A DNA stretch of 64,000 nucleotides from NCBI RefSeq assembly GCF_022965805.1, contig NW_027330931.1, positions 36,001 to 100,000 on the forward strand, read 5' to 3'. Position numbers and translations under genes: made by a program. Source of the DNA: Primulina eburnea. Lineage: Eukaryota > Streptophyta > Magnoliopsida > Lamiales > Gesneriaceae. The notes under the pieces were generated by a model. That model did no database searches. It was given only the letters and a program-made list of their open reading frames with translations, and was not told where the DNA came from. Positions within the stretch are counted from its first letter, which is position 1; the number at the start of each line of letters is the position of its first letter. Of this stretch, positions 1 through 64,000 are shown piece by piece.

Positions 1-954
1 TATAGATGTTCTTAGCTGTTTGCAGCCCTTCCCTTCACTTGGATCCATTTCTTCTGACTTTCTACCTATATATATATATATATGTTTATTTTTTCTTTGC
101 AGGTACTGTTCTTTTGGGGGGTTCTCTTCTCCCCCGTCTTGCTTGTCTGGTGTGAGTGGGCCCAAACACTCGCACACTACATGTTTGGTCTCCTAGGGAT
201 TGGGTGGGCTCTTGCACTTACCCTATTGGTGCTTTTCTTTGGCCCTCTCATATTCCCTGGAGCGCTATTTCTGTTTGTGGCTCTCTTTGGTCCATTTCTG
301 GCTCCTGGCGGGCGCTTACTGCAGGTTGTCCTTGCCCGCCGTATCAGTTCTTTTACAGGAGTTTACTGGATGTCGTGGTGGTTCCAGGGATTATTTCCGG
401 ACGAACCTCTTCATTGTTATGATACCTTCGTCAGATTTATACTTCAGATGCTGGATCCTTTTTGTCCTGGCTGGATTGCGATCTTCATTTTGCCCTTTTA
501 TCGTCATTGGACAGTGATTTCCTGGCCAGATCTTATGATCACTGCTGGGATTCATACAGTTACCTGGTCTCAGATTAGCGTCGTTCTGACAGACCGGCTT
601 CTTCAGGGTGATGGTTCAGAGATGAGAGCTTCTTCATGGATTCCGCACTCATCTTACAGTTATCATTTGATCTTCTCGGCGTGTTGCCACTTAGCGCTGC
701 TCGTATTTGATTAGTTTCTGGCGCACTTTTTGCCGTAGTCTAGGGTTATTTTGTTTACGTATTTTTGTCCCTAGGCTACTTTGTCTTTATGTTTCCACTG
801 CTTTAGCCTTTTCGAGGAGGTCTTGGTGTAGTCCCCCTCCTCTTTTAGGTTTTCTTTCTGTTGTTACTTTTTATTTTGTGGATATATACAGGTAGGGGTC
901 TGCCTAACCCCCCCGCATCCGGCGGTGTTTTCCGGAAAAAAAAAAAAAAAAAAA
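1..954 (+). mobile_element. E0: 3' end of a telomere-associated L1-type LINE, cut by window start
   Basis: Only the 3' end of this copy is present. Bases 1-15 are the last four ORF2 codons (Tyr-Arg-Cys-Ser) and the TAG stop; the rest is 3' UTR and a 19-nt poly(A) (936-954) joined to CCCTAAA repeat. The 3' UTR has, in order: a (TA)n run (67-83) followed by a pyrimidine tract ending in AG (101-102); hairpin A with arms 307-313 and 334-340; inverted CTAGGG/CCCTAG (740-745, 769-774); hairpin B with arms 814-820 and 836-842; a TATATACAG motif; and terminal hairpins at 891-909 and 913-925. It resembles the 3' ends of E9 and E10 most closely. A 210-codon hydrophobic frame (82-714) is open here but I do not call it a gene. 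Confidence 0.9.
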
Positions 955-1036
955 CCCTAAACCCTAAACCCCAAACCCCAAACCCTAAACCCTAACCCCT
1001 AAACCCTAAAACCCTAAAAACCCTAAACCCTAAACC
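955..1036 (+). repeat. Telomeric spacer, CCCTAAA and variants
   Basis: About 80 bp of CCCTAAA heptamers mixed with CCCCAAA, CCCCTAAA and CCCTAAAA variants. It starts in register straight after the E0 poly(A) and ends abruptly at the 5' end of E1. No target-site duplication can be recognised because the target is itself repetitive. Confidence 0.93.
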
Positions 1037-3620
1037 ATTAGCCCCCAAATTGTTTTTCTCTAAAGTGAATAGTGACTCAAAAAAAGCCAAAAATCGTTCA
1101 AAAAATCGCCTCCATGTCCGCGCCGGTTTCCGGCCGGCCACCGGTACGATCAGGTACGCCTCGTCGAGACGAGGATGCTGTCCAAATTTCAGGTCCAACG
1201 GAGGTCGTTTCGCCGGCCAAATCGACGGTCAACTCCACGGAAATCGCCCCGATTCCGTCGCCCAGAATCGCACCTGTCTCCGGTCATCGTCCGGCGACGA
1301 TTTATACGTCAATGGATTCGTCTGTCTCAGTCGATCCTATGGTCCGAAATTCAGCTCAATCGGAGTTCATTTGCATCCCGAAATCGACCGGAGAAGTTTC
1401 GTCGCCACTGTTCACCGCGACGCCACCGACGATTTCCTCGATTCCGGCCGATTCCGCCGGTGTTTGTTCGATCGGGGACCCGATCTGTGATGCCCAGAAG
1501 CAGGCGCATCTTTTGGTTCATCCCCCATTGTCAGATTCGTTTCCGGTGACCGGGAATTTTAGATCTACTCTTGAAAACACTGTTCACTCGCCTGCGCCGC
1601 GGTTTTCCTTCAATTCCGTCGCCGTCCTTGCTCCAAATTTCAATTCCTCTGGTCAGATTACTCCTCCATTCATGGGTAATCTTTCCATGTCTTCAATTTT
1701 GGGAAATTCATCGCAGAGCAAAAACGCCCAATTTTCGATTTCATCTCCATTTTCGTCTACTGTTCACCCCGATTTGGACCCTCCTCCGGCCGGTTCTGCT
1801 CCGGTTGGTACCGGTTCCCAGTTCGTCTCGCCGGCGCCGTCCCTCGGTGGTGTTCCGACCGGAAAGTCAACGGTCAACGGTCAACAGTCCACGGTTGACG
1901 GTCAACAGTCAACAGTCAACGGTCAAATGTCAAACCCGAGATCACGGAATGTCGCTTCGATTATTCCAGGTGTATCTGTGGTATCCGTTCCTCCTACAGT
2001 TTCATTTCGTGATATTTTGCGTCGTTCCTCTCCACCTTCGCAGGATCAGGGTTTTGCTGATGTTGTTGATTCGATGGATGAGGTGCCTGCCCCGACCGAT
2101 CGTGATGGGATTCCTGGTATTTTATTTCCGGATCAGGTAATCTCCTCCCTCTCAGCTCCTTTTCGATTTGCTTTGATCGGGAGAATTTCTGGGAACCGGG
2201 GCTTGACCCCGAATAAGGATATTTTATCTGCTCTTTCTTGCACGGGTTTGTTGGGCTCCCACACCGTTCGCTTTCTTCCTCGTGGGTATATGGTTCTCAC
2301 TCTTTCTTGCGAGGAGGATTATTTAAAGTTTTGGGAGAGGCCAGAAATCACCATCAGGACTGTGGTTATCCGATTTTCGAAATGGACCCCGGAATTTAAG
2401 TATGAGGAGGATTCCTCCATTGCACCGGTATGGGTTCGTTTCCCTGATTTGCCTCTACATCTCTATGCTAAAAAGAGTTTGTATCCGATTGCCATGATAT
2501 TAGGTAACCCTGTTAAGGTTGATGAGATTACTGTTGATGTTTCCCGAGGTTCGTTTGCTCGGGTTTGTGTTGAGATGGATGTCCTTCAGCCTCGTCCGGA
2601 TAAGATTTGGGTAGGCTGGGGTGATCATTTTCAGGTTGTCGAGGTTATTTACGAGAGGGTTCCCCGTTTCTGTTCTCACTGTAAGATGCTTGGTCATTCG
2701 TTGGATTTTTGTTCTAGTAATGGCCAGCGTTTTGGTTCAAGGAGGCGTGGACCTCAGCGTCAGGCTCCTTCTACACCTCCGTCAACTGATCCGATGGCCC
2801 AGGATCCCCGTCCTCATGGCAAGGATGTTGTTTCTGATTCCCTGCCTCTTGTTCAGGCAGAGTCGTCACAGGGTGTTACTCCTGATCCGGTTCCGTCCAA
2901 TGAATTTGTATTTCCAAAACAGGTTGCTAAGCGTCCCCGGCGTCGGCCTCCTATTCGGAAAGATCCTGCTCCGACACAGTCTGCTCCCACGCATAACTCC
3001 TTTGGTATTCTACAGACCACACCAGATATTGATTGTCCGGTAGTAGGGACCCCTCTGGTTGCTGTTCCGTTGGTTTCGTCACCTGTGGTTGAGCTTGCTA
3101 TTTCTGTACTGGATCCTGTGGTTTCTGGGATTCCTCCTCCTGCTTCTAGTATGTTGTCTTCACTTGCAGAGGATTCAGGCTGTGTGGGTTTTGTGGAGGA
3201 GGTTGTATCTTCTTCTACCACCGCCTGTTTATCTTTACCGCTCCCGGGACGCACGCGTTCTCAGCAGCGGCGATATTATCGACATAAGTCGCTTCAGGCA
3301 AGCTCGCCATATGAGCCGCCTCTTGATCCTGGCTGATATTGTTTGATTCCGCCTTTCTGTGCGTTAGGTGGTGGGCGTTTACTGCAGAGTTCTCCTTGCT
3401 CACCCTTTTCATTTACTTTGTCTGATGTATTCCGGGACGACTGCTGTTTACTTTTTGGGTTGCTCTGTTGTAGTATGTCGTTTATTTTGTTTTGCTGTTA
3501 TGCTTGTATCGCTTTTGTTGTGGAGGTCTTGGCTTAGTCCCCCTCCCATCAGGCTTTCTTTGTACCGCTCTTTTGTTGTATATAAATAAAAGGTTCTTCT
3601 AAAAAAAAAAAAAAAAAAAA
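1037..3620 (+). mobile_element. E1: short gag-only (ORF1-only) retroelement, HeT-A-like in layout
   Basis: A complete 2.6-kb element: 5' UTR of 77 nt starting with ATTAGCCCCC, one ORF (1114-3336), a 3' UTR of about 260 nt, and a 20-nt poly(A) (3601-3620) joined to CCCTAAA. There is no endonuclease or reverse transcriptase. The 3' UTR keeps hairpin A (3370-3376 with 3398-3404) and hairpin B (3522-3526 with 3542-3546) of the large elements, but ends with an AATAAA-containing TATAAATAAAAGG instead of their GC-rich terminal hairpins. The start shares the CCCC-AAA-TTTTTCTCT pattern of the autonomous copies. It is nearly identical to E8 although its flanks differ, so it looks like an independent recent insertion. 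I infer that it moves using the ORF2 protein of the LINEs. Confidence 0.88.
1114..3336 (+). CDS. ORF1 (gag-like) protein of the short element E1, DUF4283 + zinc knuckle
   Basis: Intact 740-aa frame. I start it at the ATG at 1114 because upstream codons in frame are only GTG. The first 350 residues are Ser/Pro/Thr-rich and look disordered. They include a 70-bp run of GTCAA-based repeats (1866-1934) coding for Ser-Thr-Val-Asn-Gly-Gln units. A DUF4283-like domain covers about residues 350-490 (FALIGRISGN, RFSKWTPEF, PVWVRFPDLPLHLY), followed by a CX2CX4HX4C knuckle at C520, C523, H528, C533. The tail is basic, then ends in a short region unlike ORF1 of the large LINEs. Plant L1 ORF1 proteins of this type bind the element RNA and form the RNP. 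It is clearly related to, but diverged from, the ORF1 of E2-E11 and matches E8 almost residue for residue. An open frame in both copies argues for recent selection or recent arrival. Confidence 0.88.
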   Translation: MSAPVSGRPPVRSGTPRRDEDAVQISGPTEVVSPAKSTVNSTEIAPIPSPRIAPVSGHRPATIYTSMDSSVSVDPMVRNSAQSEFICIPKSTGEVSSPLFTATPPTISSIPADSAGVCSIGDPICDAQKQAHLLVHPPLSDSFPVTGNFRSTLENTVHSPAPRFSFNSVAVLAPNFNSSGQITPPFMGNLSMSSILGNSSQSKNAQFSISSPFSSTVHPDLDPPPAGSAPVGTGSQFVSPAPSLGGVPTGKSTVNGQQSTVDGQQSTVNGQMSNPRSRNVASIIPGVSVVSVPPTVSFRDILRRSSPPSQDQGFADVVDSMDEVPAPTDRDGIPGILFPDQVISSLSAPFRFALIGRISGNRGLTPNKDILSALSCTGLLGSHTVRFLPRGYMVLTLSCEEDYLKFWERPEITIRTVVIRFSKWTPEFKYEEDSSIAPVWVRFPDLPLHLYAKKSLYPIAMILGNPVKVDEITVDVSRGSFARVCVEMDVLQPRPDKIWVGWGDHFQVVEVIYERVPRFCSHCKMLGHSLDFCSSNGQRFGSRRRGPQRQAPSTPPSTDPMAQDPRPHGKDVVSDSLPLVQAESSQGVTPDPVPSNEFVFPKQVAKRPRRRPPIRKDPAPTQSAPTHNSFGILQTTPDIDCPVVGTPLVAVPLVSSPVVELAISVLDPVVSGIPPPASSMLSSLAEDSGCVGFVEEVVSSSTTACLSLPLPGRTRSQQRRYYRHKSLQASSPYEPPLDPG

Positions 3621-3653
3621 CCCTAAACCCTAAACCAAAACCCAAACCAAACC
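3621..3653 (+). repeat. Short telomeric spacer
   Basis: Two CCCTAAA units followed by ACCAAAACCCAAACC-like degenerate units. The degenerate part (3635-3653) may be E2's own 5' terminus, because a similar run precedes E5 (26762-26775). Confidence 0.88.
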
Positions 3654-3748
3654 ATTTGCCCCCAAAAAAATTTTCTCTGAAAAAACACACAGTAAAATGT
3701 GAGAAAAAACACACTAAAACCGTCACTATTCACGCCCTACCTGCCGCC
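3654..3748 (+). promoter_or_regulatory. Conserved LINE 5' UTR (likely internal promoter region)
   Basis: About 95 nt that recur with little change before ORF1 in E3, E4, E5, E7, E9, E10 and E11. It holds TTGCCCCCAAA, TTTTCTCTGAAAAAACACAC, a second AAAAAACACACTAA, and the 12-mer GTCACTATTCAC just before a GCCGCCATG start context. Full-length LINEs usually carry promoter activity in the 5' UTR; that this stretch does so is inference. The 12-mer is present in reverse orientation in E1 and E8. Confidence 0.6.
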
Positions 3749-6217
3749 ATGCCGCCGCCGCCGGATCCCGGCCGGCGAACCACCCCACCTGAACCGCCTC
3801 CTCACGGCGACCACTCTGTCCAAGTTTCAGTCCAATCGGAGTCCGGTAACCCCTCCGATTTTCCGATCGAAAATACGCCGCTTTTTGTTTCAATTTCGTC
3901 GCCGGCGAACACTGCTCCTCCCGGCGCCGGCTGTACTTCCCCTGACTCGGAATTTCCTCAGCTTTCCAATGGTACCCTTGCGCGATCGGTTCTTGTACCA
4001 CAGCCACCGGAATCTGCATTTTCTTCCTCGCCCACACTGTTCATCGCGCCACCGTCTGGTTTTCTTCAGATTCCGGCGACCTCAGGTAACCTCTTTGCAA
4101 ATGGAACCCCGATCTTGAATCCCCTCTCCCAGACAATCATTTCGCCTCTGGTATCAGCCCCAACGCCGTTCGCTTGCGACGGCAATTTCAGATCTACGAT
4201 TTTCAGTCACTGTTCACCGTCTGCGACCGCTTCTTCGCTCAATTACTCCGGCGTCGCTTCTCCTTTCCTTAATTCGTCCATGGCGTTTACTCCCCATGTC
4301 ATGGGTAACATTTCCATCCCTTCAATTTCTGGAAATAGCTTGGCAATCGGAAATGCCCAAATTCCGATTTCATCTCCTTTTCCGGCGACTGTTCTTCCCG
4401 ATTTCTCCCCTCCGCCGCCCGGTTCTGCTGGAATGGTCACCGGTTTCAAGTTCTCCGCTGCGTCGCCAGTTCATGGTGGTACTCCGGCAGTTAACTCGCC
4501 AGTCAACTCGGGCGAGTCACTCGGTCAATCCAATGGAGTCAACTCTGCAGTCAACTCTCCTGTTCCACCGGCCAGTTCAGGTATGAATTCTGTGGCTTCT
4601 TTTCCTGTGTCTTTTCGTGATGTTTTATCACCACCTTCCCCTCGTACGGTGAAGAAAAGCTTCGATGATGTCCTCAATTCGATGGAAGAGATGCCTGCAC
4701 CGTCTTTGATGGATGGTAAGCCGGGTATCAGATTCCCGGTTGAGGTCATTTCTTCATTGACCGAGCCCTTCAAATATGCTTTGGTTGGAAAAATTTCAGG
4801 CAACCGGTCACTAGTTCCTAATTCTATGATTTCTGCGGCTTTTGGTAAATTGGGGCTTGTGCGTTCTTTTGATTTAAAATTTTTGCCCCGGGGTTTTCTT
4901 GTTATCTCTCTCTCCTGTGAAGAAGACTATGCGCGTATCTGGACGCGTGGGACCATGATGGTGGGACCACTGGGGATCAGATTCTCTAAGTGGACCCCTG
5001 AATTTCAATTACAAGAAGAATCCCCCATTGCTCCAGTTTGGATTCGTTTTCCAGGTTTACCCCTGCACTTGTTTGACAAACGCATTCTTTTTGCTTTGGC
5101 TAAACTTGTGGGTAAACCGGTGAAAATGGATGACTACACTGCTAATGCTTCACATGGATCTTTTGCTCGTGTTTGTGTGGAGGTTAATGTCTTAGAGCCT
5201 CTCACTAAGCAGGTCTGGGTTGGTTGGGGAGAACATACCCAGGTTCTTGATGTTGTTTATGAGAAAATCCCTACGTATTGCACCGATTGCAAGATGCTGG
5301 GACATTCCACTAGTGTTTGTTACTCTCATGGGATGAACCCTAGGCCTGCTAGGCCTAATCAGGCTTATGCTAATCCTAAGCAGCCAGTTGCTCCTACAGT
5401 CCAGACACCCCAGGAGGGTGTCACTCCTGCTTTTCCTACGGGACCACAGCCCCAGCTTCAAGAAATAGGCTTCGGTCCCAGACGGAGGAGGAGGAGGCGT
5501 CCTATGCGTCGGGGTCCCCCTGCTGGAGTTACCCCTCCCGACACTGTTGTCCCGCAGGGATTGGTTTCGTCTAATGCTTTTGAAGTCCTATCCCCCTGGC
5601 GTAATGAGGCCCAGCGTTTTGACCCTGATTTGGTTGGACAAAATTCTGGTTCTGGGCCCTATTTGGGGGAGGTGGGTGTTGATATCACCGGTGGTCCTCC
5701 TTTGGAGCTTGATCCCTCCGGGGGTATGGGTTCTGAAGATGTGTGTTCACCCACCGTTGCTGTTTCTCCGTTGGCTTTAGGTGGTGTGTCAGCCCAGTCT
5801 GGGGCTAAAGTTTTGGAGGAGGAGGATGTCACTCCTTTTGTGGACTGTGCGGAGGTTTTGGGATCTCCGCATGCTGGTATTGACACGGTGTTTTCTGAAA
5901 CACCCGTGATCTGTTTGGAGAATCATAGTTCTCACTCGATACCTTCTGGCCCTCCGTCCCCTGCCGATGCTTCTTCTTTATTCTCTCACTTGGTTGATAG
6001 GCAGGGTTCTCCTGTTGCTGAGAGGGTTGTCTGTGAGAGGCTTGTTGAGGATCTTGACCAGGGTTTTGATAGACATTCTGAACCAGGTGATGGTCGTGCT
6101 TCTGAGGACGGCATCCTGGACTCAGATATGCCAGATGTTAAGAAAAAGAGGGGGAGGGATGACCTCCCCGGGTCGCTCCGGAAGCGATCGGGCATTTCTG
6201 CTGCCCGTTCATCATGA
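3749..6217 (+). CDS. ORF1 (gag-like) RNA-binding protein of E2
   Basis: Intact, 822 aa. The start is the ATG at 3749 in the context GCCGCCATG; the frame is also open upstream to the element's 5' end but has no ATG there. Order of parts: Pro/Ser-rich N-terminal third; Val-Asn-Ser repeats encoded by GTCAACTC-type DNA repeats (4489-4560); DUF4283-like domain at about 340-480 (KYALVGKISGNRS, RFSKWTPEF); zinc knuckle C511, C514, H519, C524; an Arg run near residue 580; acidic segment; Lys/Arg-rich C-terminus. In plant L1s this protein coats element RNA. Its stop overlaps the ORF2 start (ATGA, 6214-6217), which suggests ORF2 is translated by termination-reinitiation. Confidence 0.92.
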   Translation: MPPPPDPGRRTTPPEPPPHGDHSVQVSVQSESGNPSDFPIENTPLFVSISSPANTAPPGAGCTSPDSEFPQLSNGTLARSVLVPQPPESAFSSSPTLFIAPPSGFLQIPATSGNLFANGTPILNPLSQTIISPLVSAPTPFACDGNFRSTIFSHCSPSATASSLNYSGVASPFLNSSMAFTPHVMGNISIPSISGNSLAIGNAQIPISSPFPATVLPDFSPPPPGSAGMVTGFKFSAASPVHGGTPAVNSPVNSGESLGQSNGVNSAVNSPVPPASSGMNSVASFPVSFRDVLSPPSPRTVKKSFDDVLNSMEEMPAPSLMDGKPGIRFPVEVISSLTEPFKYALVGKISGNRSLVPNSMISAAFGKLGLVRSFDLKFLPRGFLVISLSCEEDYARIWTRGTMMVGPLGIRFSKWTPEFQLQEESPIAPVWIRFPGLPLHLFDKRILFALAKLVGKPVKMDDYTANASHGSFARVCVEVNVLEPLTKQVWVGWGEHTQVLDVVYEKIPTYCTDCKMLGHSTSVCYSHGMNPRPARPNQAYANPKQPVAPTVQTPQEGVTPAFPTGPQPQLQEIGFGPRRRRRRRPMRRGPPAGVTPPDTVVPQGLVSSNAFEVLSPWRNEAQRFDPDLVGQNSGSGPYLGEVGVDITGGPPLELDPSGGMGSEDVCSPTVAVSPLALGGVSAQSGAKVLEEEDVTPFVDCAEVLGSPHAGIDTVFSETPVICLENHSSHSIPSGPPSPADASSLFSHLVDRQGSPVAERVVCERLVEDLDQGFDRHSEPGDGRASEDGILDSDMPDVKKKRGRDDLPGSLRKRSGISAARSS

Positions 6218-9200
6218 ATTTCCTAATCTGGAATATCCGGGGACTCCGAGGTTCGGAGTCCCAACAGAGGCTTCACGCTTTTGTTAAGGAGAAACAGATT
6301 AAGGTTCTGGCTGTTTTGGAGCCGATGATCGATTTAGATCAGAGATTCATGACCCGTCGTCTTGGTTTTTCTCGTGTCATTTCGAATCTTTCTGGTCACA
6401 TTTGGGTGTTTTTTTTCTGCTGATGTGCAGGCTCAGTGTGTTCTTGATCATGCTCAGTTCCTTCACATTAAGGTTTCTGCTCTTTTTTGCCCACATCTGT
6501 TTTTTGTTCTTTTGTTTATGCCAGATGTGATTATATTGAGCGTCGTGATCTCTGGTCTTCCCTGCTTCATGTCAAGCCTGTTCTGGGTCCTTGGCTGGTG
6601 GGCGGGGATTTCAATGTTGTTCGTGATGCGTCTGAGTGTTTGGGCACCCGTGGTGGTAGGTTGCTACCCATGGAGGAGTTCAACACTTTCATTATGGATT
6701 CTGGTTTGTTTGATGCTGGTTTTGAGGGGTCTTCGTTCACTTGGACGAATAAGACCATTTGGAAGCGGTTGGACAGGGTTATGGTCTCCGTTGATTGGGG
6801 TGATCATTTCAGCTCCATTCGAGTTGAACATCTTCCCCGTACTGTTTCTGACCACTGTCCGCTTTTGGTCACCGCTCCGATTTTTGCCCGTGGGCCGAGC
6901 TCGTTTCGATTCCAGCGTATGTGGCTTCGGCATCATGGTTTTTTGCAGACCGTTAGGCTCAATTGGTATTTGCCTTGTAGTCAGAGCGGTATGTCGCGAC
7001 TTTTTGTCAAGTTGAAGCATCTTAAGAATCACCTCAAGTGGTGGAATCAGGATGTTTTTGGTAACATCTTTGATAAAATCACCGAGGCTGAGAGTGCAGT
7101 TCGTTCTGCTGAGCTTGTTTGTGAGGCCGATCCTTCAGATTCGAATTGGACTGCCCTGTCCGATCGGAATGCGGATCTGGCTCGTGTCACCGCCATGGAG
7201 GCGGATTTTTGGAAACAAAAAGCTGCATGCAACTGGCTTGAGGATGGTGAGCGGAACACCAAACTCTTTCATAACATGGTTAAGAAGAAGCGTGTGGCTA
7301 ATAAGATTTTCCGCATATGGGAAGATGGGGTTTGCCTGACGTCTCCTGAGATGATTCAGCAGTCGGGTGCCTCGTTTTTTCAGCACTTACTCACTGGGGA
7401 TCCCTTTGTGCTTGATTGTCCCGATTTTTCGGGGTTTCCTTCGGTGATTTCTGATGAGGATAATTCTGGGATTACTACCACCCCCTCCCTTGAGGAGGTG
7501 CGTGCGACGGTTTTCTCCATTTCTCCTGATAGTGTGGCAGGCCCTGATGGCTTCTCTTCTGCGTTTTTCCAGCATTGCTGGGAGATCGTTCATCAGGATG
7601 TGTTGGATGCGGTTTTGGATTTTTTCCGAGGCTCTCCCCTGCCCCAGAGCTTTACTGCCACCACGATTACTTTGATCCCAAAAGTCGAGGGTGCTCGGGC
7701 TTGGTCGGATTTCCGTCCGATCAGCCTGTGTAATGTCACGAATAAAATCATTTCTAAGTTGTTGTACTCTCGGTTGCGGGCTGTGGCGGAGAGACTCATT
7801 TCTTTGAATCAGAGTGGTTTTGTTCCCGGACGGATGATTTCTGATAACATCCTCCTTGCTCAGGAGCTCACTCATAGTCTCACTCTCCCCAATCGTGGTG
7901 GTAATGTTATTTTGAAGTTGGATATGGCTAAGGCCTATGATCGGGTCCAATGGCCTTTCCTTTTTGATGCTTTGCGTCATTTTGGTTTCTCTGAGCAGGT
8001 TGTGGCTTTGGTCTCGGCCTGTATTTCTCATTGCCATTTCTCCGTTAATATCAATGGCTCTCTCTCGGGGTTTTTCGGCTCTACCAGGGGCCTCCGGCAG
8101 GGAGATCCATTGTCTCCCCTTCTCTTCATTTTAGGGGCGGAGTATCTTTCGCGTGGCCTTGACAGACTCTACTTGCGTTATCCTGCTATTAGGTACCGTT
8201 CTAGTTGTGATCTTTCGGTTTCCCACCTGGCCTATGCTGATGATATCATTATTTTTGCCAATGGTGGGTCTCGTGGGATGCAGCGTCTTTTAGACTTTCT
8301 GCATCACTACGAGAACTGTTCGGGACAGCTCGTGAATGCTGTCAAGAGTTCCCTGATTTTACCTCCGCGATGCTCTGAGCGTCTTCGTTCTAGACTTTTG
8401 CGTATCACTGGCTTTGCGGAGGGTCATCTGCCGATTAAGTACCTCGGAGTTCCCTTATTTCGAGGCAATAGGTCGTGTTCTCTTTTTGAGCCCCTCTTAC
8501 AGTCTGTTAGGAGGCGGCTGGAGGGTTGGGAGATTCGTACTCTTTCTCTGGGGAGCCGCATGACTCTCATTCGTAGCGTGCTCCTCTCGATGCCCATATA
8601 CTTGTTTCAGGTTGTTCAGCCTCTGTTGGCTGTCATGGAAAAACTTGAGAGAGCCTTTAATGCCTTTCTTTGGGGATCTAGGCCCTTGGAGAAGAAATGG
8701 CATTGGGCTCGCTGGTCTCGGGCTTGCCTCCCTGTGGAAGAGGGGGGTCTTGGCTTCCGCAGATTGAAAGATCTTGTGGATAGCTTCTCTATAAAATTGT
8801 GGTTTCGGTTCAGGCAGGGATCCTCCCTCTGGGCCAAATTTTTGATGAGGAAATATTGTCTCTTGGCACACCCAGCTTGTGTTTCTTCTCGTGGTCTTAT
8901 CTCTCCCACTTGGCGGCGTTTGCTCCAGATCAGGCCTCGTGCGGAGAGTGGTATTCGCTGGCGTGTCGGCCATGGAGAGGCTTCTTTTTGGGATGATTGT
9001 TGGTTCGGTGATGTCCCCTTGTCCAGGCAGACTGAGGTCTGTGGGGATCGTGGGGCCCGGGTTTCCTATTTTCTTTCGGAGGGAACCTGGGATTTTGACC
9101 TTCTTTGTTCAGTTGTGGCTCCTTCTATTGCGGAGCAGATTATGTTGGTCCCGATTCTTTCGGGAGAGGTGGATTCGGCTCGTTGGATCTATAGCTCCGA

Positions 9201-11287: not shown

Positions 11288-11310
11288 AAAAAAAAAAAAA
11301 AAAAAAAAAA

Positions 11311-11352
11311 CCCTAAACCCTAAACCCTAAACCCTAAACCAAAACCAGACCC
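11311..11352 (+). repeat. Telomeric spacer
   Basis: Four perfect CCCTAAA units, then AACCAAAACCAGACCC leading into E3. Confidence 0.92.
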
Positions 11353-11445
11353 ATTTGCCCCCATAAAATTTTCTCTGAAAAAACACACACTAAAAGGTGC
11401 GAAAAAACACACTAAATTCGTCACTATTCATGCCTATTTGCCGCC

Positions 11446-17899: not shown

Positions 17900-17957
17900 C
17901 CATTTGTGCCCTTTCCTCTTTTTGGATCTCTTTCTATATCACATCTGTTTGGAGGTT

Positions 17958-47437: not shown

Positions 47438-47530
47438 ATTTTGCCCCCAAAAATTTTTCTCTGAAAAAACACACAGTCAAGGTGCGAAAAAACACACTAA
47501 AACAGTCACTATTCACGCCCTATCTCCGCC

Positions 47531-54841: not shown

Positions 54842-54860
54842 AAAAAAAAAAAAAAAAAAA

Positions 54861-54960
54861 CCCTAAATCCTAAAAAAAAAAAAAAAAAAAAACCTAAACC
54901 CTAAACCCTAAACCCTAAAAAAAAAAAAAAAAAAAAACCCTAAACCCTAAACCCTAAACC
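54861..54960 (+). repeat. Telomeric spacer with two orphan poly(A) tracts
   Basis: After the E9 tail come 11 bp of telomere repeat, 21 A (54872-54892), 24 bp of repeat, 21 A (54917-54937), and 23 bp of repeat leading to E10. Both tracts match the length and register of true LINE tails without any LINE body. Confidence 0.92.
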
Positions 54961-55049
54961 GTCCCCAAAAAATTTTCTCTGAAATAACACACAGTAAAAG
55001 GTGAGAAAAAACACACTAACCCGTCACTATTCACGCCCTACACGCCGCC

Positions 55050-57380
55050 ATGCCGCCGCCGCCGGAACCCGGCCGGACAACCACCCCACCTGAACCGCCA
55101 CCTCACGGCGACCCTCCCTGCAAAATCTCAGCTCAAATGGAGTCCGATTGCCCACCCATTTCGCCGGTCAAAATCGCGGCAATTTCTACCCCTTCGTCGG
55201 CGCCGGCAACCGCCGCTCCTCCGGCTACTGGCCATACATCATTCTGTTCGCCTGACCCTTCTCTTTCATTTCCGACACATGCGCGACCGTCTTCTTCCCC
55301 CGTTCCGGCGTCATTTCCGTTCAAAGCCCCGCAGACACTGTTCACTGCGCAGCCGTCGCTTGTTTCGTCGATTCCGGCTGCGTCCGACCACCTTTGTGAA
55401 AAAGGGCTCCCGATCTGGAATGCCCACTCTGAGACGAAGCTATTGACACCGGAATCGAGCCCAATGGTGTTCTCCTCCGGCGTGAATTTCAGATCTACGA
55501 TTTCTGAGTCTGCCGCGCCGTTCACGTCCGCTTCTTCTTCTAATTCCGGCGCCGTCACGACGGCGTTCTTCAATTCCTCTGGCCAACTTCATCGTCCGGT
55601 CATGGGTAGGCTTTTGCCTCAATCAATTTTAGGTTTCCGGCCACCGGTCGGAAACCCCCAAATTCTAGGGCAAAATCGAATTTATCCACATTCTTTGATG
55701 CAATCGGCCCCTCTGCTGCCCGGTTCTAGTGGATTGAAGACCGGTTCTGTGTTCTCCTCACCGTCGCCGATCTTGGGTGCATCTCCGGTGGTCAACTCGC
55801 CGGTCAACTCGGCCGGGTCAACTCAGTGAGTTGACCGAGTCAACACGACAGTCAACAACTCGGGTATGCCTTCTAAATCTGATTCTCGTGCGATAAAAAC
55901 GTTTCCGGTGTCATTTAGGGATGTTCTGGCTCCTACTTCCCCTCGCTCGGGGAAGAATGGTTTTGGAGATGTTGTGAATGCTATGGAAGAAATGCCTCCA
56001 CCGACCCTTTTGAATGGGAAACCGGGTATTCATTTCCCGGATGAGGTAATGTCTTCCCTGATCGAGCCTTTTAAGTTTTCCTTAGTTGGGAAGATTTCTG
56101 GTAATAGATCCTTAGTCCCAAATTCGGGAATTTCTGCGGCTTTTGGTCGTTTGGGATTGAAGCGATGTTTTGATTTGAGGTTCTTGCCTCGGGGTTTTCT
56201 GATCCTTTCACTTCATTGTGAAGAGGATTATGCGTTCTTTTGGACGCGTGGGCAGATGATGGTGGGCCTTCTCGGGATACGTTTCTCTAAATGGACCCCG
56301 GAATTCAATCTTCAAGAAGAATCTCCCATCGCCCCTGTTTGGGTGCGTCTCCCGGGTTTGCCCATTCACCTGTTTAACAAGAAAAGTCTTTTTGCCCTAG
56401 CCAAGATTTTGGGCAACCCGGTGAAAATGGATGACTTTACTGCTGACTCCTCTCGGAGCGCTTTTGCTCGTGTCTGTGTGGAGCTGAATGTGTTGGAACC
56501 ACCCGTTAAGCAAATTTGGGTGGGTTGGGGTGATCATACTCAGGAGATTGATGTTGTTTATGAAAAAATTCCTGGGTACTGCTTGGATTGCAAAATTTTG
56601 GGTCATTCGACAGATGTTTGCTATTCTCATGGGAAAAATCCAAAACCCGCTCGATCCAAGCCTGCTGATCGAGACCCTCCTCAGCCAGAGGTCCCTCCTG
56701 CTCCGGCACCTCCTCAGGGTGTTGTTCCTGTCATTGTCCCGGGACCACAGCCCCAGCTTCATGTCAATGGCCATGGTCCCCGACGTAGACAGAGACGGAG
56801 GCCTCTTCGACAGGCTCTCCCGAGGGATGATCCTCTTGCTTCGAACTCTTTTGGAGTTCTTTCACATTTGCAGGAGACAGAGGTTGGCTCTGAGGAGCTT
56901 GGATTAGGTGTTCCTGATCCCTCTGTCGGTTTCCGTTCTCATCAGGAGGCCCCTTCTTCTGACCGCCCTGCGGTCACGGTGGCTGAGGACGATGAGAGTG
57001 TTCTTTTTGTGGACTGCGTGGATGACCTTGGATCTCCACGCCCGGATGTGGTGACTGTGTTTGTCCCCCCGGAGGTTTGTATTGAAAATCATAGCAGCCA
57101 CTCGGTCCCATCTTTTCCTGCATCCCCTGCTGATGCCACTTCGATGCTGGACGAGTTGATTGCTCTTCAGGGACCCCCTATTCTTGAGATGATTCCCAGT
57201 CACATGTCGGCCGATGATCCTGATCAGGATTTTGATCGACATTCTGTGTCTGGAGTTAGCTGTGGGTCTGAGTGTAGTATTCTGGACACTGACATGTCCA
57301 ATCCCAGAAAAAGACCTCAGGATGATGGTCGGCGATCGCGTAAAAAGCGATTGGATCCTTCTTCCACCCGTTCCCCATGA
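55050..57380 (+). pseudogene. ORF1 (gag-like) of E10 with one stop
   Basis: One frame from ATG 55050 to 57380, interrupted by TGA at 55827-55829 (residue 260), where E9 has CGA. The stop lies inside the GTCAACTC repeat run. Downstream, 504 codons from ATG 55866 carry the complete DUF4283-like domain, knuckle (CLDCKILGHSTDVC) and basic tail. Ends in ATGA with ORF2. Confidence 0.9.
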
Positions 57381-60300
57381 ATTGTTTAATCTGGAATATC
57401 CGGGAACTTCGAGGTTCGGAGTCCCAGCAGAAGCTTCATGCCTTTGTGAAGGAGAAACAGATTAAGGTTTTGGCTGTTTTGGAGCCCTTGATTGATCTGG
57501 ATCCGAGATTCATGACTCGCCGTTTGGGGTTTTCTGGAGTCATCTCTAATCTCTCCGGTCATAACTGGGTCTTTTTTGCTGCTGATGTGAGGGCGGAGTG
57601 TGTTTTTGATCATGCTCAGTTCCTTCACATCAGAGTCTCTGCCTCTTTCTTGCCGACAGAGATATTTTGTTCTTTTGTCTATGCTAGATGTGATTATGTT
57701 CAGCGTAGGGATCTTTGGGCTTCTTTGCTTTTGGTTAAGCCTGTTTTGGGTCCCTGGCTGGTTGGGGGCGACTTTAATGTCGTCAGGGATGCGTCTGAGT
57801 GTTTGGGCTCCCGTGGTGGCAGGTTGCTACCCATGGAGGAGTTCAACACTTTTATTCTTGATTCTGGCCTGATCGATGCTGGCTTTGAGGGGTCTTCGTT
57901 CACTTGGACGAATAATACCATTTGGAAGCGGTTGGACATGGTCTTGGTTTCTGTTGATTGGGGAGATCATTTCAACTCGATTCGGGTTGAACATCTCGCC
58001 CGTACTGTTTCGGATCACTGTCCGCTTTTGGTTACCGCTCCTGTTTTTGCCCGTGGGCCGAGCTCGTTTCGCTTCTAGCGTATGTGTGTTAGGCACCATG
58101 GTTTTTTGCAGACTGTGAGGCTTAATTGGAATTTGCCTTGCAGTTTGAGCGGCATGCCTCGGCTTTTTGCCAAGATGAAGCGTCTCAAGCATCACCTACG
58201 GTGGTGGAATCGGGATGTTTTTGGTAACATCTTTGATAGACTCACTGAGGCCGAGAGGGCTGTTCGTTCAGCCGAGGCTGTCTGTGAGGCCGACCCTTCT
58301 GACGCGAATTGGACTTCGCTGTCCGATCGCAATGAGGATCTGGCCCGTATCACCGCCATGGAGGCGGATTTTTGGAAATAGAAAGCGGCTTGCCATTGGC
58401 TTGAGGATGGTGAGCGGAACACCAGACTCTTCCATAATATGGTGAGGAAAAAGCGCGTTGCGAATAAAATTTTCCGCATATGGGAGAATGGGGTTTGCCT
58501 GACGTCTCAGGATTTGATTCAGCAGTCAGGAGCCTTGTTTTTCCAGGATCTTCTTACCGGGGAGCCCTCTGCGCTCGACTGCCCTGATTTTTCGGGTTTT
58601 CCCTAGGTTATCTCTGACGTGGAGAATGATGGTTTTGCTGCGATTCCCTCTTTGGAGGAGGTTCGCGCGACCGTCTTCTCCATTCACCCTGATAGCGTTG
58701 CTGTCCCTGATGGCTTTTCTTCAGCGTTTTTTCAGCATTGCTGGGAGATTGTCCATCAGGATGTTTTTGGTGCTGTTCTTGATTTTTTCCAGGGATCTCT
58801 TATGCCGCAGGGCTTCACCGCCACCACGATCACTCTGATACCCAAAGTCGAGGGTGCACGGTCTTGGTCGGACTTCCGTCCGATCAGTCTGTGCAACGTC
58901 ACGAACAAAATCATATCGAAGCTGTTGTACTCTCGTTTGAGGGATGTGGTGGAGAGACTTGTTTCCCCGAATCAGAGTGGCTTCGTTCCGGGTCGGATGA
59001 TCTCTGATAATATTCTTCTTGCCCAGGAGCTCACTCACAGCATTACTCTCCCCACTCGTGGTGGCAATGTCATCTTGAAGTTGGATATGGCCAAGGCCTA
59101 TGATAGGGTCCAGTGGCGTTTCCTCTTTGATGTTTTGAGACATTTTGGTTTTTCTGAGCGTGTTGTGGCTTTGGTCTCGGCCTGCATTTCCCATTGTCAT
59201 TTCTCTGTGAACATCAATGGCTCCCTATCGGGGTTTTTTGGTTCCACCAGAGGCCTCCGTCAGGGCGATCCATTGTCTCCCCTTCTCTTCATTTTGGGGG
59301 CGGAGTATCTTTCCCGCGGCCTTGATCGTCTCTACCTGCAGCATCCTGCGATTAGATATCGGTCTGATTGTGATATTTTGATTTCCCATTTGGCCTACGC
59401 TGATGATGTCATTATTTTTGCCAGTGGTGGGTCTCGTGGTATGCAGGGTCTTGTTGATTTTCTGCATCATTACGAGAACTGTTCGGGGCAGCGTGTGAAT
59501 GCTGCCAAGAGCTCTTTGATTTTGCCTCCGAGGTGCTCTGCACGCCTCCGCTCCTGGCTTTTGCGCATCACCGGGTTCGCCGAGGGTCTTCTGCCCCTCA
59601 AGTACCTCGGAGTTCCCCTTTATCGGGGTAATCGCACGTGCTCCCTTTTTGAGCCCCTCCTACAGTCTGTTTGTAGGAAGTTAGAGGGTTGGGAGACTCG
59701 GACCCTCTCCCCGGGTAGCCGTATGACCCTGATCCGTAGCGTGCTCCTCTCCATGCCGATTTATCTGTTTCAGGTGGTTCAGCCACCTCTGGCTGTCATG
59801 GAAAAGCTTGAGCGGGCCTTCAATGCCTTCCTCTGGGGGTCGAGACCCTTGGAAAGGAAGTGGCACTGGGCCCGGTGGTCCCGGGCTTGCCTCCCCGTGC
59901 TTGAGGGGGGCCTTGGATTCCGCAGATTGAAAGATCTTGTGGAATGTTTCTCTATTAAATTATGGTTCAGATTTCGGCAGGGCTCCTCTCTATGGGCGAT
60001 ATTCCTTTTCCGGAAGTATTGCCGGCTGGATGCTCCTGCCGGTGTCCCCGCCCGTGCTTCTATTTCCCCCATTTGGCGTCGTCTCCTCAGGATCCGCCCT
60101 CGCGCGGAGCCTGGCATTCGCTGGCGAGTTGGTCTCGGAGATATTTCCTTTTGGGATGACACTTGGTTTGGGGACGTTCCTTTGTCCTCCCGGTGTGTGG
60201 TCCGCGGGGGCCGTGATGTTCGGGTCTCTCATTTTTTTTCTGAGGGGTCCTGGGATTTTGATCGCCTCTGTGCGGTTGTTGCTCCTTCGGTTGCCGAGGA

Positions 60301-61456
60301 GATTGTTTTGATTCCTGTTCTTTCGGGTGACCCTGATCTGGCACGATGGATCTATAGCTCCGATGGTGCCTTCTCTGTGAAATCTGCTTGGGAGCTGATC
60401 CGTCAGCGTGCTCCGTCTTCTGATATATTCCGCCCGTGTTGGGGGAGCAGGTTGAGGCCTACCATGTCGTTCTTCCTCTGGAGATTCTGGCATCAATGGC
60501 TCCCAGTTGATGAGGTGCTCCAGCGTCGGGGTTTTGCGTTAGCCTCGAGATGTCAGTGTTGTGATATGTCTGAGACATTCACACACATAATCATTCGCAG
60601 CCCGGTTTCTCGGTCTGTCTGGCACTTCTTTGGCGCCGTGTTTCGGGTTCGTATTCCCGACACTGAGGATTTCAGTTTGTTCCTCAGTGCGTGGAAGAGA
60701 GATTTGGTCTGGTCCCGGGGGGGCCATGTGCGGGAGTTTCTTCCCTGCATTGTCCTGTGGTTCCTCTGGACTGCGCGGAACGATGCTAAGCACCGTCATC
60801 TTCCCATCTCTGGGGAGACGGTGAAGTTCCAGATTTTGTCTTACCTGCGTCTCGCCCACTCTGCGCGTACTGTCAAACCCAGACATGTGGCGAGATCGCT
60901 GGGTATTTTGGTTTCTCTCCACAGATTTCATAGGACGGCGATTGTTCGCTGGCTGCGGCCGCCGTCCGGGTGCTTCAAGCTTAATGTGGATGGGAGCTCG
61001 CGTGGTACATCTGGGGACTCCTCTGCTGGTGGCGTTGTTCGGGATGATTCTGGGAGGGTTGTGCTTTCATTCAGCGAGTTCATCGGAGCTGGGTCTTCTC
61101 TCCGGGCTGAGCTTTGGGCGGTTTGGAGGAGTCTTCTCCTTTGTTCGGATCATTCTTTCTTCCCTCTTTGGATCGAGCTTGATTCTCTGACTTCTATTCA
61201 GCTCATTCGTTCCCGTCGATGTTGCTGGGGTCTTGATCACATTATATCCAGGATTTTAGTCCTTTTGAGGGGGCGGTCTGTTCATATTTCGCATATATTC
61301 CGGGAGGGTAATTCGGTGGCAGATGCATTGGCGGCGAGGGCCCATACCCTTAGGCACTTTACCTTAGAGTTAGGTCCCTCCCTCCCTAGGCACATTTCCA
61401 TACTTGTACGTTCGGATACCTCCGGACTTCCCTACCTGAGATATCGATGTTCTTAG
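57377..61456 (+). pseudogene. ORF2 of E10, three stops and a small deletion
   Basis: A single frame throughout, with TAG at 58076-58078 (CAG in relatives), 58379-58381 (CAG) and 58604-58606 (TCG). An in-frame 18-bp deletion near 60885 removes six residues upstream of the RNase H domain. From 58619 there are 945 open codons with RT (GLRQGDPLSPLLF, YADD), zf-RVT and RNase H (NVDGSSRGT, RAELWAVWR, VADALA). The endonuclease motifs (GGDFNVV, SDHCPL) are upstream of the first stop. No frameshift. Confidence 0.93.
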
Positions 61457-62369
61457 CCGCTTGCAGCCCATCCCTTCTCTTGGACCCATTTCTTCGGTAT
61501 TTCTATATGTATATGTATATTTTTTCTTTGCAGGTACTGTTACTTAGGGGGTTTCTCTTTTCCCCCGTTTTGCCAGTCTGGTGTGAGTGGGCCCAGACAC
61601 TCGCACACTACATGTTTGGTCTCCTCGGGATTGGGTGGGCTCTCGCACTTCCCCTCTTGGTGCTCTTCTTTGGCCCTCTCATATTCCCTGGAGCGCTATT
61701 TCTGTTTGGGCCTCTCTTTGGTCTACTTCTGGTCCCTGGCGGGCGTTTACTGCAGTTTCTCCTTGCCCGCCGTCTCAGTTCTTTTACAGAAGTTTACTGG
61801 ATGTCGTGGTGGTTCCAGGGATTCTTTCCGGACGATCCTCTTCATTGTTATGAGACCTTCGTCAGATTTATACTTCAGATGTTGGATCCTTTTTGTTATG
61901 GCTGGATTGCGATCTTCATTTTGCTCTTCTATCGTCATTGTACAGTGATTTCCTGGCTTTATCTTATTTTGACTGCTGGGATTCATACAGTTACTCGGTT
62001 TCAGATTAGAGTCGTTTTGACAGATTGGATTCTTCAGGGTGATGGCTTAGAGATGAGAATTTCTCCATGGGTTCTACACTCATCTCCCTGTTATCATTTG
62101 GTCTTCTTCGGCGTGTTGACTCTTAGCGCAGCTCGTATTTGATTAGTTTCTGGCGCTTTTTTGTCGTAGTCTAGGGTTATTTTTGCTTATGTATTTATGT
62201 CCCTAGGCTACTTGGTATTTATGTGTCTACTGCCTTAGCCTTTTTGAGGAGGTCTTGGTTTAGTCCCCCTCCTCTTTTATGTTTTCTTTCTGCTGTTACT
62301 TTTTTATTTTATGGATATATACAGGTAGGGGTCTGCCTAACCCCCCCGCATCCGGCGGTGCTTTCCGGT
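61457..62369 (+). other. 3' UTR of E10
   Basis: Has TATATGTATATG instead of a pure TA run, then a T-rich tract ending in AG at 61532-61533. Hairpin A is perfect (61738-61744, 61765-61771). Inverted CTAGGG/CCCTAG at about 62170-62206. Hairpin B arms 62246-62252 and 62268-62274. Terminal hairpins precede the poly(A). A 231-codon hydrophobic frame beginning at an ATG inside the last ORF2 codons (61447-62142) is open. Confidence 0.8.
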
Positions 62370-62391
62370 AAAAAAAAAAAAAAAAAAAAAA

Positions 62392-62448
62392 CCTAAACCC
62401 TAAACCCTAAACCCGAAACCCCAAACCCCAAACCCTAAACCCTAAACC
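62392..62448 (+). repeat. Telomeric spacer
   Basis: Eight CCCTAAA, CCCGAAA and CCCCAAA units. The first unit has two C instead of three after the poly(A). Confidence 0.92.
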
Positions 62449-64000
62449 TAACTGAGAAAAATGCTCTCCAAAAACACACACTAAAAGCGTGAGAAAAAAC
62501 ACACTACATTTATCACTATTCACGCCCAACAACCGCCATGTCACCGCCGCCGGATCCCGGCCGGCCACCTACACCATCTGAATCGCCTTCACCTGCCGAC
62601 CAACATATCCAAATTTCATCGTCATCGGAGTCCGGCAACACCTTCATTTTACCGACTGAAAAAACGCCATTTCCGTCCAAAAACTCGACGTCGCCGTACA
62701 CTGCTCCTCCCGGCGTCGGACACCTACCGGTAGATGCGCCTCGAGGAGACGGTTCGAATGGTACCAGCCCCATCTCCAACAACTCTGTAGATCCGTCCCA
62801 ATCGGCGTTCAATGTCTCGCCTGCACTGTTGCAAAAATCGCCGGAGTTTCTTTCCTCGATTCCGGCCGATTCGTCCATCATAAATTCAATCCAAGGCCCG
62901 ATCTGTGATGTACATCCTCAGACGATTCCAATGGTACCTGTTTCAGCCCAATCGACGTTCGTAGTCGACGGCAATTTCAGATCTGAGAATTTCCCACCGG
63001 CCGTCACTGTGTCGTCTCCTTCTTCTTCGATTCCCGGCGATGTCCCACCGTTTTTCTTCAATTCCTTTGGGCATTCGCATCGTCCAGCCATGGGTAGAGT
63101 GTTGCCTCAATCAATTTCCGGTTTTCGGCCACCGGTCGGAAACCCCCAAATCTTAGGGCAAAATCGAGTTTCTTCCGCTTCTTTTGTTAAATTGACCCCT
63201 CCATTGGCCGGTTCTAGTTCAATTGGTCCCGATTCTGGACTCTGCACATCGTCGCCGTCCCAGGGTGGTGCTCCGGCAGGTGCCTACCGAGTCAACTCGG
63301 TCGAGTCAAACAGCCGAGTGGGTTGTGTTGACTCGGCAGTCAAACTAGGTGATGCAGCGGTCAAATCAGGTACGCGCATTCCTACTCCGCTTACTGTGTC
63401 GTTTCGCGATATTCTGTTCCCTCCGTCTCCTCGCACGGCTAAAAAAAGCTTTGATGAGTTGCACAATTCAATGAATGACATGCCTGTGCCGACTCTTCGG
63501 AATGGAAAACCGGGTATTCTCTTCCCGGATGAGGTAATTTCTTCCCTGGCTGAACCTTTCAAATTTGCTTTGGTTGGGAAAATTTCAGGGAATCGATCTC
63601 TAGTTCCAAATTCTGGTATTTCTGCGGCTTTTGCTAAATTGGGACTAGTTAGATCTTTTGACTTAAAGTTCATGCCTCGGGGTTTTCTTGTTCTCACACT
63701 TGCTTGTGAAGAAGACTATGCATTATTTTGGACTAAGGGAGTTATGCAGGTGGGGCCTCTGTCGATCCGCTTCTCTAAGTGGACGCCAGAGTTTAATCTT
63801 CAGGAGGAGTCACCCATTGCCCCTGTTTGGATCCGCTTTCCGGGTCTTCCCCTTCATCTGTTTTCTAAGCAGAGTCTCTTTGCTTTGGCCAAAATTATGG
63901 GGAAACCGGTCAAGATGGATGATTTTGCTCGCGTTTGTGTTGAAATTAATGTGCTCGAACCGCCAGTCAAAGAGATTTGGGTGGGTTGGGGTGATCATGC
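62449..64000 (+). mobile_element. E11: 5' part of another L1-type LINE, cut by window end
   Basis: 5' UTR of about 89 nt. Its first bases (ACTGAGAAAAATGCTCTCC) are diverged from ATTTGCCCCCAAA, but the AAACACACACTAAAAG and CACTATTCAC parts are kept. ORF1 starts at 62538. Closest to E3. Confidence 0.9.
62538..64000 (+). CDS. ORF1 (gag-like) of E11, 3' end outside the window
   Basis: Open from ATG 62538 to the window end (487 codons visible, no stop found on reading the frame through). N-terminal Pro/Ser-rich part, then the DUF4283-like domain (KFALVGKISGN, RFSKWTPEFNLQ). Near 63922 an in-frame 27-bp deletion removes nine residues after VKMDD, which E3, E5, E9 and E10 have. This shortens a conserved loop near the end of the domain, so the protein may be impaired although the frame is open. 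The zinc knuckle and ORF2 lie beyond the window. Confidence 0.85.
   Translation, partial: MSPPPDPGRPPTPSESPSPADQHIQISSSSESGNTFILPTEKTPFPSKNSTSPYTAPPGVGHLPVDAPRGDGSNGTSPISNNSVDPSQSAFNVSPALLQKSPEFLSSIPADSSIINSIQGPICDVHPQTIPMVPVSAQSTFVVDGNFRSENFPPAVTVSSPSSSIPGDVPPFFFNSFGHSHRPAMGRVLPQSISGFRPPVGNPQILGQNRVSSASFVKLTPPLAGSSSIGPDSGLCTSSPSQGGAPAGAYRVNSVESNSRVGCVDSAVKLGDAAVKSGTRIPTPLTVSFRDILFPPSPRTAKKSFDELHNSMNDMPVPTLRNGKPGILFPDEVISSLAEPFKFALVGKISGNRSLVPNSGISAAFAKLGLVRSFDLKFMPRGFLVLTLACEEDYALFWTKGVMQVGPLSIRFSKWTPEFNLQEESPIAPVWIRFPGLPLHLFSKQSLFALAKIMGKPVKMDDFARVCVEINVLEPPVKEIWVGWGDH

Follow-up and report, generated by a model that had tools for sequence, protein, structure and literature searches.

How does a stretch of plant DNA come to consist of retrotransposons that all point the same way, with telomere repeat between them? 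The question is raised by 64 kb from Primulina eburnea (contig C401, positions 36001 to 100000; hereafter the window), whose content is almost solely long interspersed nuclear elements (LINEs) arranged head to tail on the + strand and joined through short spacers of telomere repeat, CCCTAAA as read here and TTTAGGG on the other strand. A sequence-only reading of the window had proposed that these elements, of the LINE-1 (L1) type, insert in or attach to telomeres. The genome assembly holds 812,487,562 bases in 1224 contigs; contigs C1 to C18 are inferred to be the 18 chromosomes of P. eburnea, giving 36 chromosome ends, and C401 is outside these 18. In agreement with that proposal, L1-type elements on telomere repeat and in fixed polarity were found at 25 of the 36 ends. 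The most probable account, to which we give about three chances in four, is endonuclease-primed insertion of a Gesneriaceae L1 family into TTTAGGG repeats, in the company of a partner family that encodes only the first open reading frame (ORF1).

Junctions with the telomere repeat

All 12 L1 3' ends in the window lie on the + strand, and all 12 have a poly(A) running straight into telomere repeat, just as had been stated; the last bases of poly(A) are at 954, 3620, 11310, 18998, 26654, 34344, 36925, 44617, 44718, 47333, 54860 and 62391. What follows is exactly CCCTAAACCCTAAACC in ten of the 12 cases, CCCTAAATCC at 54861 and CCTAAACCC at 62392. The 12 5' starts, two of which belong to 5'-truncated copies, are each preceded by telomere repeat ending in ...AAACC. 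This part of the claim about 5' ends stood, but the part that placed nothing else between repeat and element did not: A/C-rich filler of up to about 20 nt separates the last perfect repeat from the element at some 5' ends; many spacer repeats are variants (CCCCAAA, CCCGAAA, CCCTAGA); and spacers also hold three poly(A) tracts of 16-21 nt that are bare of any element (47388-47403, 54872-54892 and 54917-54937). At another locus, L038, the insertion within telomere repeat consists of poly(A) preceded by no more than about 11 nt from the element's 3' end. Both this insertion and the bare tracts are probably products of extremely aborted reverse transcription. Runs of the same variant occur in spacers, for example at 18999-19113 and 26655-26764 (CCCTAGA three to four times, CCCCAAA, CCCGAAA), next to poly(A) that is pure, and the variant repeats seem older than the insertions.

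The same picture was obtained when fetched loci were added to the window, giving 29 family 3' ends: 27 pass directly into CCTAA repeats, and the other two (L019 and L021) do so after an interrupted A tract. The poly(A) is 12-26 nt long, with a mean of 20.9 (n=27). Among 57 A tracts of at least 12 nt in the window and 27 loci, CnTAAAC comes next in 38, TTTAGGG in none and neither in 19, some of these 19 being interrupted tails or altered repeats. Counted away from the poly(A), units 1 to 6 are perfect CCCTAAA in 33/37, 34/37, 28/37, 23/37, 14/32 and 9/30 spacers, and mid-spacer units are perfect in 150 of 324 cases (41 tracts were found; those with fewer than four units were dropped, and L035 was omitted as a duplicate). 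At the 5' side the search string has 18 matches; one (L014) is not an element, and the 17 family 5' ends all have CCCTAAACC within 75 bp upstream. The join is mostly AAACC, followed by filler or by the element itself. The two 5'-truncated window copies also join after AAACC, with one C that can be assigned to either side; perfect repeats precede the copy at 34587, and variants precede the one at 44669.

If both strands were nicked at specific sites, the spacers would be expected to show this very pattern, perfect at the edges and variant in between, together with a duplication of 9 or 16 bp. L1 endonucleases cut at a T/A-type site, which GGGTTT^AGGG resembles, and priming at the latter would fit the poly(A) junction. 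With a phase that is nearly fixed on both sides, perfect repeats at the edges and variants in mid-spacer, the flanks look more like endonuclease-made insertions within a repeat tract than like attachment to a bare end. Cutting of the telomere repeat by the element's own endonuclease would fit the presence of an endonuclease domain as well as this phase.

Position along the chromosomes

The genome-wide counts below are of exact strings, and terminal is used for places no more than 200 kb from a chromosome end; for all 36 ends together, such stretches make up 1.0% of chromosome length. The junction of A12 with CCCTAAACCCTAAACC occurs 242 times in the genome, as against none in a reversed-pattern control and none genome-wide for the opposite polarity (A12 with TTTAGGGTTTAGGG), which excludes chance. 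The first 100 of these junctions listed, on C1 to C8, comprise 70 terminal ones (68 of the right polarity) and 30 in inner clusters of C5, C7 and C8. A 3' motif of the family, CCTAACCCCCCCGCNTCCGGCGGTG, was found at 148 places (69 forward, 79 reverse), and its reversed control at none. Positions were listed for 100 of the 148, with 95 on C1 to C18; a chromosome end is no more than 100 kb away for 76 of the 95 and no more than 200 kb away for 79. Most of the copies listed thus do not lie in non-telomeric DNA, the outcome that the sequence-only reading had named as fatal to itself. The poly(A) faces inward in 77 of the 79 terminal places, the two exceptions being in the first 8 kb of C3, so that among the places listed the polarity at one chromosome end mirrors that at the other.

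Similar results came from the other end of the element and from its coding sequence. The 5' motif has 49 places, 30 of them on chromosomes; 25 of the 30 are terminal, all 25 with the right polarity. Of the best-scoring 34 ORF2 copies (out of 3096 first-look candidates), 21 are on chromosomes, and 20 of these are terminal with the right polarity, the remaining one being on C5. The family is present in the first 10 kb of 12 of the 18 chromosomes (reversed in C3, partly reversed in C2), and it was not seen in the first 10 kb of C5, C6, C16, C17 and C18; the first 10 kb of C9 has a distant L1 only (about 30-42% identity), with family arrays at 17-30 kb. Nine far-end tips were read: the family is in C1 (last 10 kb) and in C2, C6, C8 and C9 (last 5 kb), and none was found in the last 5 kb of C3, C4, C5 and C7, C3 having the family farther in. 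The figure of 25 of 36 ends combines these tips with the listed positions. In having copies in fixed orientation on telomere repeat and at chromosome ends, the Primulina elements agree with telomere-repeat-targeted LINEs such as SART/TRAS and Zepp. The gene for telomerase is present as well (one match to the TERT RNA-binding domain, E 1.8e-32, in an open frame), and this fits the suggestion that telomerase adds repeat between events.

The last 5 kb of C8 (L035) looks like the start of C1 (L009, C1:1-10000) inverted, with the same element boundaries and the same match identities. This likeness could be due to exchange between chromosome ends or to a scaffold tip duplicated in the assembly.

The 16 non-terminal 3' motif places listed are on C5 (10, in one cluster, all on the - strand), C7 (2), C8 (1, at 223 kb), C18 (2) and C1 (1, at 48.26 Mb); nine were read, and seven of the nine are joined to telomere repeat. 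The C5 cluster holds at least 10 3' motif places and at least 19 A12-telomere junctions, all on the - strand, and both C5 tips as read carry no array; the cluster appears to be either an erstwhile chromosome end or the result of a misjoin in scaffolding. In the C7 cluster, junctions on the + strand span 37.28-37.34 Mb, and one 5' motif, on the - strand, is at 37.435 Mb.

The L1 family, its ORF1-only partner and the units of the window

The window elements are plant L1s of the LINE-1 clade, as judged from their domains, the structures that match their reverse transcriptase (RT), their poly(A) and their variable 5' truncation. Pfam matches above cut-off were DUF4283 in ORF1 and Exo_endo_phos, RVT_1, zf-RVT and RVT_3 in ORF2, which thus carries an APE-type endonuclease, RT, zf-RVT and RNase H; a zinc knuckle was found below cut-off in four of five ORF1 proteins scanned. 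Against solved structures the RT gave 14 matches, the best five being four LINE-1 ORF2 proteins and one RNA-directed DNA polymerase, with R2 next; the endonuclease domain alone gave no match there. Among the best 120 of 371 protein matches, Gesneriaceae come first (Primulina and Henckelia, with Dorcoceras lower), followed by Zingiber, Curcuma and Theobroma, and other window copies match P. eburnea proteins with identities of up to 100% over 202 aa. An RT tree of 60 rows, made by a quick method with SH-aLRT support only, unites all 36 Gesneriaceae rows in a single clade (100), to which the five ginger-family rows are sister (97). Window copies fall into at least five lineages, interleaved with rows from P. 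tabacum and P. huaijiensis. The ginger-family elements (Zingiber, Curcuma) are the nearest in the tree outside Gesneriaceae, nearer than those of other Lamiales; this kinship may reflect either an old lineage with losses or horizontal transfer.

Between window units, ORF2 has a dS of 0.09-2.5 and a dN/dS mostly near 0.10, rising to 0.27 and 0.29 for a short truncated unit against its nearest kin. With ORF2 dS reaching 2.5 at a dN/dS near 0.10, the element lineages must be old and have been kept functional. For ORF1 the dN/dS is 0.23-0.42, except for 1.2 at a dS of 0.01 in the two ORF1-only units. Most window copies are broken, with one to few stops or shifts each; the breaks follow no order along the window, and an age gradient was rejected. 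Genome-wide, 30 of the 34 best-scoring ORF2 copies, the window query included, have no internal stop, a share that is that of a best-scoring subset and not of all copies.

The ORF1-only protein has 10 protein matches, P. eburnea and P. tabacum among them, and a second, diverged ORF1-only unit stands at the start of C1. These units have the same telomere junctions and the same 3' hairpin as the autonomous ones, although the rest of the 3' end sequence differs. For the hairpin, a stem GAGGAGG...CCTCCTC upstream of the 3' end, 20 distinct sequences were compared. The stem is paired in 93.6% of 140 cells (shuffles 86.6 +/- 1.4), with 10 doubly changed cells (shuffles 3.1 +/- 1.3) and a covariation score of 0.281 (shuffles 0.170 +/- 0.023; slid versions lower), none of which was reached by any of 500 shuffles. 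Three points weigh against the hairpin: 3 pairs have a double change, a count as high in 143 of 500 shuffles; further pair types number 8, which was as high in 185 of 500; and the search string used to pick the sequences fixed part of the inner stem. We infer that the hairpin is the handle by which the ORF2 protein takes both RNAs, and the ORF1-only family would be mobilised in trans by the autonomous elements.

The window contains seven long autonomous units, one 5'-truncated ORF2 piece, two ORF1-only units, one 50-bp scrap and partial units at both edges, all on the + strand. It opens in the 3' part of an L1 unit cut by the window start (1-954; ORF2 C-terminus, 3' untranslated region (UTR) and A19). 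A spacer of CCCTAAA and variants (955-1036) leads to the first ORF1-only unit, which has its own 3' end and A20 (1037-3620; ORF at 1072-3336, 754 aa, with DUF4283, a zinc knuckle below cut-off and no ORF2 match). After a spacer that again reads CCCTAAACCCTAAACC (3621-3636), the full-length units u2 (3637-11310; ORF1, broken ORF2, A23) and u3 (11341-18998; frameshifts) follow, with a spacer at 11311-11340. An example of the 3' UTR hairpin, GAGGAGG...CCTTCTC, is at 18844-18883 in u3, and its counterpart in the ORF1-only unit is at 3518-3557. The next spacer (18999-19113) is rich in variants (CCCCAAA, CCCTAGA).

Full-length unit u4 (19114-26654) has one stop in ORF1 and an ORF2 open over 1363 aa (21690-25781), with endonuclease, RT, zf-RVT and RNase H by Pfam matches and an RT that matches LINE-1 ORF2 structures; directly after its ORF2 stop, at the start of the 3' UTR, is an A-rich tandem block (A21 TTTCG A...) at 25813-25859. 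Beyond a spacer (26655-26764) is full-length unit u5 (26765-34344), with an open ORF1 of 655 aa (27262-29229; DUF4283 and a weak zinc knuckle) and one stop in ORF2. Between u3 and u5 the dS is 0.09 for ORF2 and 0.46 for ORF1, which suggests a mosaic, through recombination or template switching. The longest spacer of the window (34345-34586) precedes the 5'-truncated u6 (34587-36925), which has the C-terminal part of ORF2 only, and another (36926-37013) separates this from full-length unit u7 (37014-44617).

The scrap at 44669-44718, an extremely 5'-truncated copy of the ORF1-only element (its last 31 nt plus A19), stands between spacers at 44618-44668 and 44719-44750. The second ORF1-only unit (44751-47333) has an open ORF of 754 aa at 44785-47049. 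The full-length units u9 (47432-54860) and u10 (54961-62391), both with a broken ORF2, are preceded by the spacers that hold the bare tracts, A16 in the first (47334-47431) and two of A21 in the second (54861-54960). A last spacer (62392-62448) leads to the 5' part of another L1 unit, cut by the window end (62449-64000). A heptamer repeat, GTCAACG/GTCAACA, occurs in the ORF1 coding sequence of several units (1866-1926, 37853-37921, 45579-45646).

Proposed insertion, alternatives and known systems

Insertion into the telomere repeat might proceed as follows: the ORF2 endonuclease would nick the G-rich strand at GGGTTT^AGGG, and the freed TTT end would prime on the poly(A) of an element RNA, presumably recognised by the ORF2 protein via the conserved 3' UTR hairpin; the C-rich strand would be cut at AAACC^CTAAA, a phase that is nearly fixed by observation; and a full or 5'-truncated copy would be left with its poly(A) facing the centromere. 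Repeated events of several old lineages, along with the ORF1-only partner presumably mobilised in trans, would build the LINE/telomere arrays, and telomerase, still encoded, presumably caps the ends.

Several observations weigh against this account. At 11 of the 36 assembled ends no array was seen among the listed positions and the tips read, and the longest telomere-like run at a read tip is about 650 nt, with variants. There are inner clusters on C5 (27.9-28.08 Mb), C7 (37.28-37.43 Mb), C8 (0.21-0.23 Mb) and C18 (0.36-0.38 Mb), each of which may represent a former end, a misjoin or a genuine interstitial site, and two of the nine non-terminal 3' ends read (C1:48260868 and C18:381419) are not joined to telomere repeat. 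Outside the window the 5' phase varies somewhat (one C earlier at L022, longer filler at L019 and L015), and it could also arise from telomerase starting at a default position. Target-site duplications are unprovable inside a 7-bp repeat, so that cut-and-primed insertion rests on phase and perfect flanks. Finally, the best 34 of 3354 candidates for a Solanum L1 protein query (P0107) lie, by position, in the same arrays, and for this reason they are no control for dispersed L1s; the one L1 met that is clearly different is that at the start of C9.

A broader view would be that Gesneriaceae chromosome ends are kept jointly by telomerase and an old, diversified L1 community with an ORF1-only partner like HeT-A of Drosophila, the elements adding themselves to the ends and their targeting having been selected since before the Primulina species split, possibly alongside a sister lineage at the telomeres of ginger. 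This is speculative and on balance unlikely; if true, plants would have a counterpart, derived from L1, of the Drosophila and Bombyx systems.

It is decidedly doubtful that the elements attach to true ends, where a 3' overhang (TTTAGGGTTT) of an eroded or uncapped end would prime on poly(A) RNA without a nick, telomerase would cap the new 5' end and the arrays would lengthen the chromosomes. Identical polarity and a location at chromosome ends are what such attachment predicts, fresh perfect repeats beside the poly(A) fit recent telomerase addition, and short spacers and bare poly(A) tracts fit repeated events at the tip. However, most 5' sides are also flanked by perfect repeats in nearly one phase, the truncated copy at 34587 included, as expected if both strands were cut; ORF2 retains its endonuclease domain and is strongly constrained as a whole (dN/dS about 0.1); and ORF breaks grow neither more nor less numerous along the window, which is a weak test. 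Of the sequence-only reading's candidate telomere-extending retrotransposons, the location in telomere repeat is supported and the lengthening of telomeres is hypothetical; the flanks look more like insertion inside the tract. A transcript with a fixed A20-(CCCUAAA)n end, from which the repeats would be RNA-templated, was also considered, as the first repeats are nearly always perfect; it is not favoured because the number of consecutive perfect repeats ranges from 0 to 12 between one spacer and another.

Very improbably, one LINE-telomere unit was multiplied as a satellite or segment via recombination, perhaps with exchange among chromosome ends. The window does have two stretches that are 95% alike across a junction (804-3653 and 44469-47371), and C8 ends in what resembles the first kilobases of C1 in inverted form; against this, the ORF2 sequences of units in one window differ to a dS above 2, the units belong to no fewer than five lineages, among which P. 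tabacum and P. huaijiensis copies are found, and their 5' truncations are independent and their spacers different. Recombination may add to the spread of the array but cannot make it, and a simple satellite at one site, which had been named as an outcome that would overturn the proposal, is excluded by the ORF2 dS of 0.09 to 2.5, the RT tree and the many chromosomes involved. The least probable account, in which LINEs would have accumulated in telomere-like repeat at interstitial or centromeric sites, could draw on the clusters at 28 Mb of C5 and 37.3 Mb of C7, on the unplaced contig C401 and on the ability of a plant L1, L1-CS of Cuscuta, to target a satellite (excerpts of PMC8091179), but it is countered by the 79 of 95 listed chromosomal 3' motif places within 200 kb of the ends, by their mirror polarity at both ends, and by the single polarity of all listed places in the C5 cluster, which looks like a former or misjoined end.

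Endonuclease-primed insertion would make the Primulina family a telomere-inserting LINE of a flowering plant that is abundant and many-lineaged, with many open ORF2 copies and the telomerase gene kept. It will be of interest to ask: how a simple-repeat target evolved in an L1 endonuclease; whether its Gag-only partner arose in parallel to HeT-A; and why chromosome-end assemblies in such plants may stop short or look LINE-rich.

The sequence-only reading knew of no well-described land-plant equivalent, and we likewise found no land-plant LINE of telomere habit in searches of open-access full texts (subscription papers and preprints being outside this scope), nor any relevant open-access paper on Primulina or Gesneriaceae telomeres. 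No land-plant LINE was found in excerpts of a review of plant telomeres (PMC7046594) or in excerpts of one on chromosome-end retrotransposons (PMC4700185), where the word "plant" was not found. SART1 and TRAS1 of Bombyx mori, of the R1 clade, resemble the Primulina family as LINEs in telomere repeat with an orientation fixed per family. Their endonucleases are of the APE type. According to excerpts of PMC7265360, genomic SART1Bm copies have a poly(A) averaging 20 bp and the element needs at least three repeats, to which the mean of 20.9 (n=27) and the perfect repeats flanking the junction in Primulina are close. The Primulina family differs in being a plant L1 (DUF4283 in ORF1, zf-RVT and RNase H in ORF2), in its TTTAGGG target and in its ORF1-only partner; it is not placed in the R1 clade, its domains and relatives being L1-type, the latter in a tree without R1 rows.

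Zepp of Chlorella (now Coccomyxa) is a LINE that lies beside TTTAGGG-type repeats in nested clusters. Its host is a green alga and not a land plant, and its likeness to the Primulina family is drawn from description and not from sequences. In excerpts of a 2023 paper, Zepp1 is the sole Viridiplantae entry among telomeric retrotransposons, and the hosts given for LINEs at telomeres are insects, a fungus, a diplomonad, a lizard and a green alga (PMC10088271). MoTeR and FoTeR of fungi, GilM/GilT, Tx1-1_ACar and the Penelope-like Athena are also retroelements at or in telomeres (excerpts of PMC10088271, FoTeR apart); they belong to other hosts and, unless L1-like according to those excerpts, to other clades. 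In Cuscuta europaea, 91% of L1-CS LINEs are associated with CUS-TR24 (excerpts of PMC8091179). Like the Primulina family, L1-CS is a plant L1 lineage strongly preferring a tandem repeat, but its target is a heterochromatic satellite. In a lycophyte, Penelope-like elements are reportedly associated with telomeres.

HeT-A, TART and TAHRE of Drosophila (Jockey clade) are similar in their end arrays of one polarity, in having several diverged lineages together and perhaps in a Gag-only-like partner. In Drosophila this partner is HeT-A, which is Gag-only beside RT-encoding elements. The arrays are head to tail at chromosome ends, with poly(A) towards the centromere (excerpts of PMC10088271). In contrast, the TERT gene is present in Primulina, so that the loss of telomerase is not shared, telomere repeats separate the units, and the flank pattern favours insertion within repeat over attachment to a bare end. 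The Primulina family thus appears to work like SART/TRAS and Zepp and is laid out like HeT-A/TART, yet it is a plant L1.

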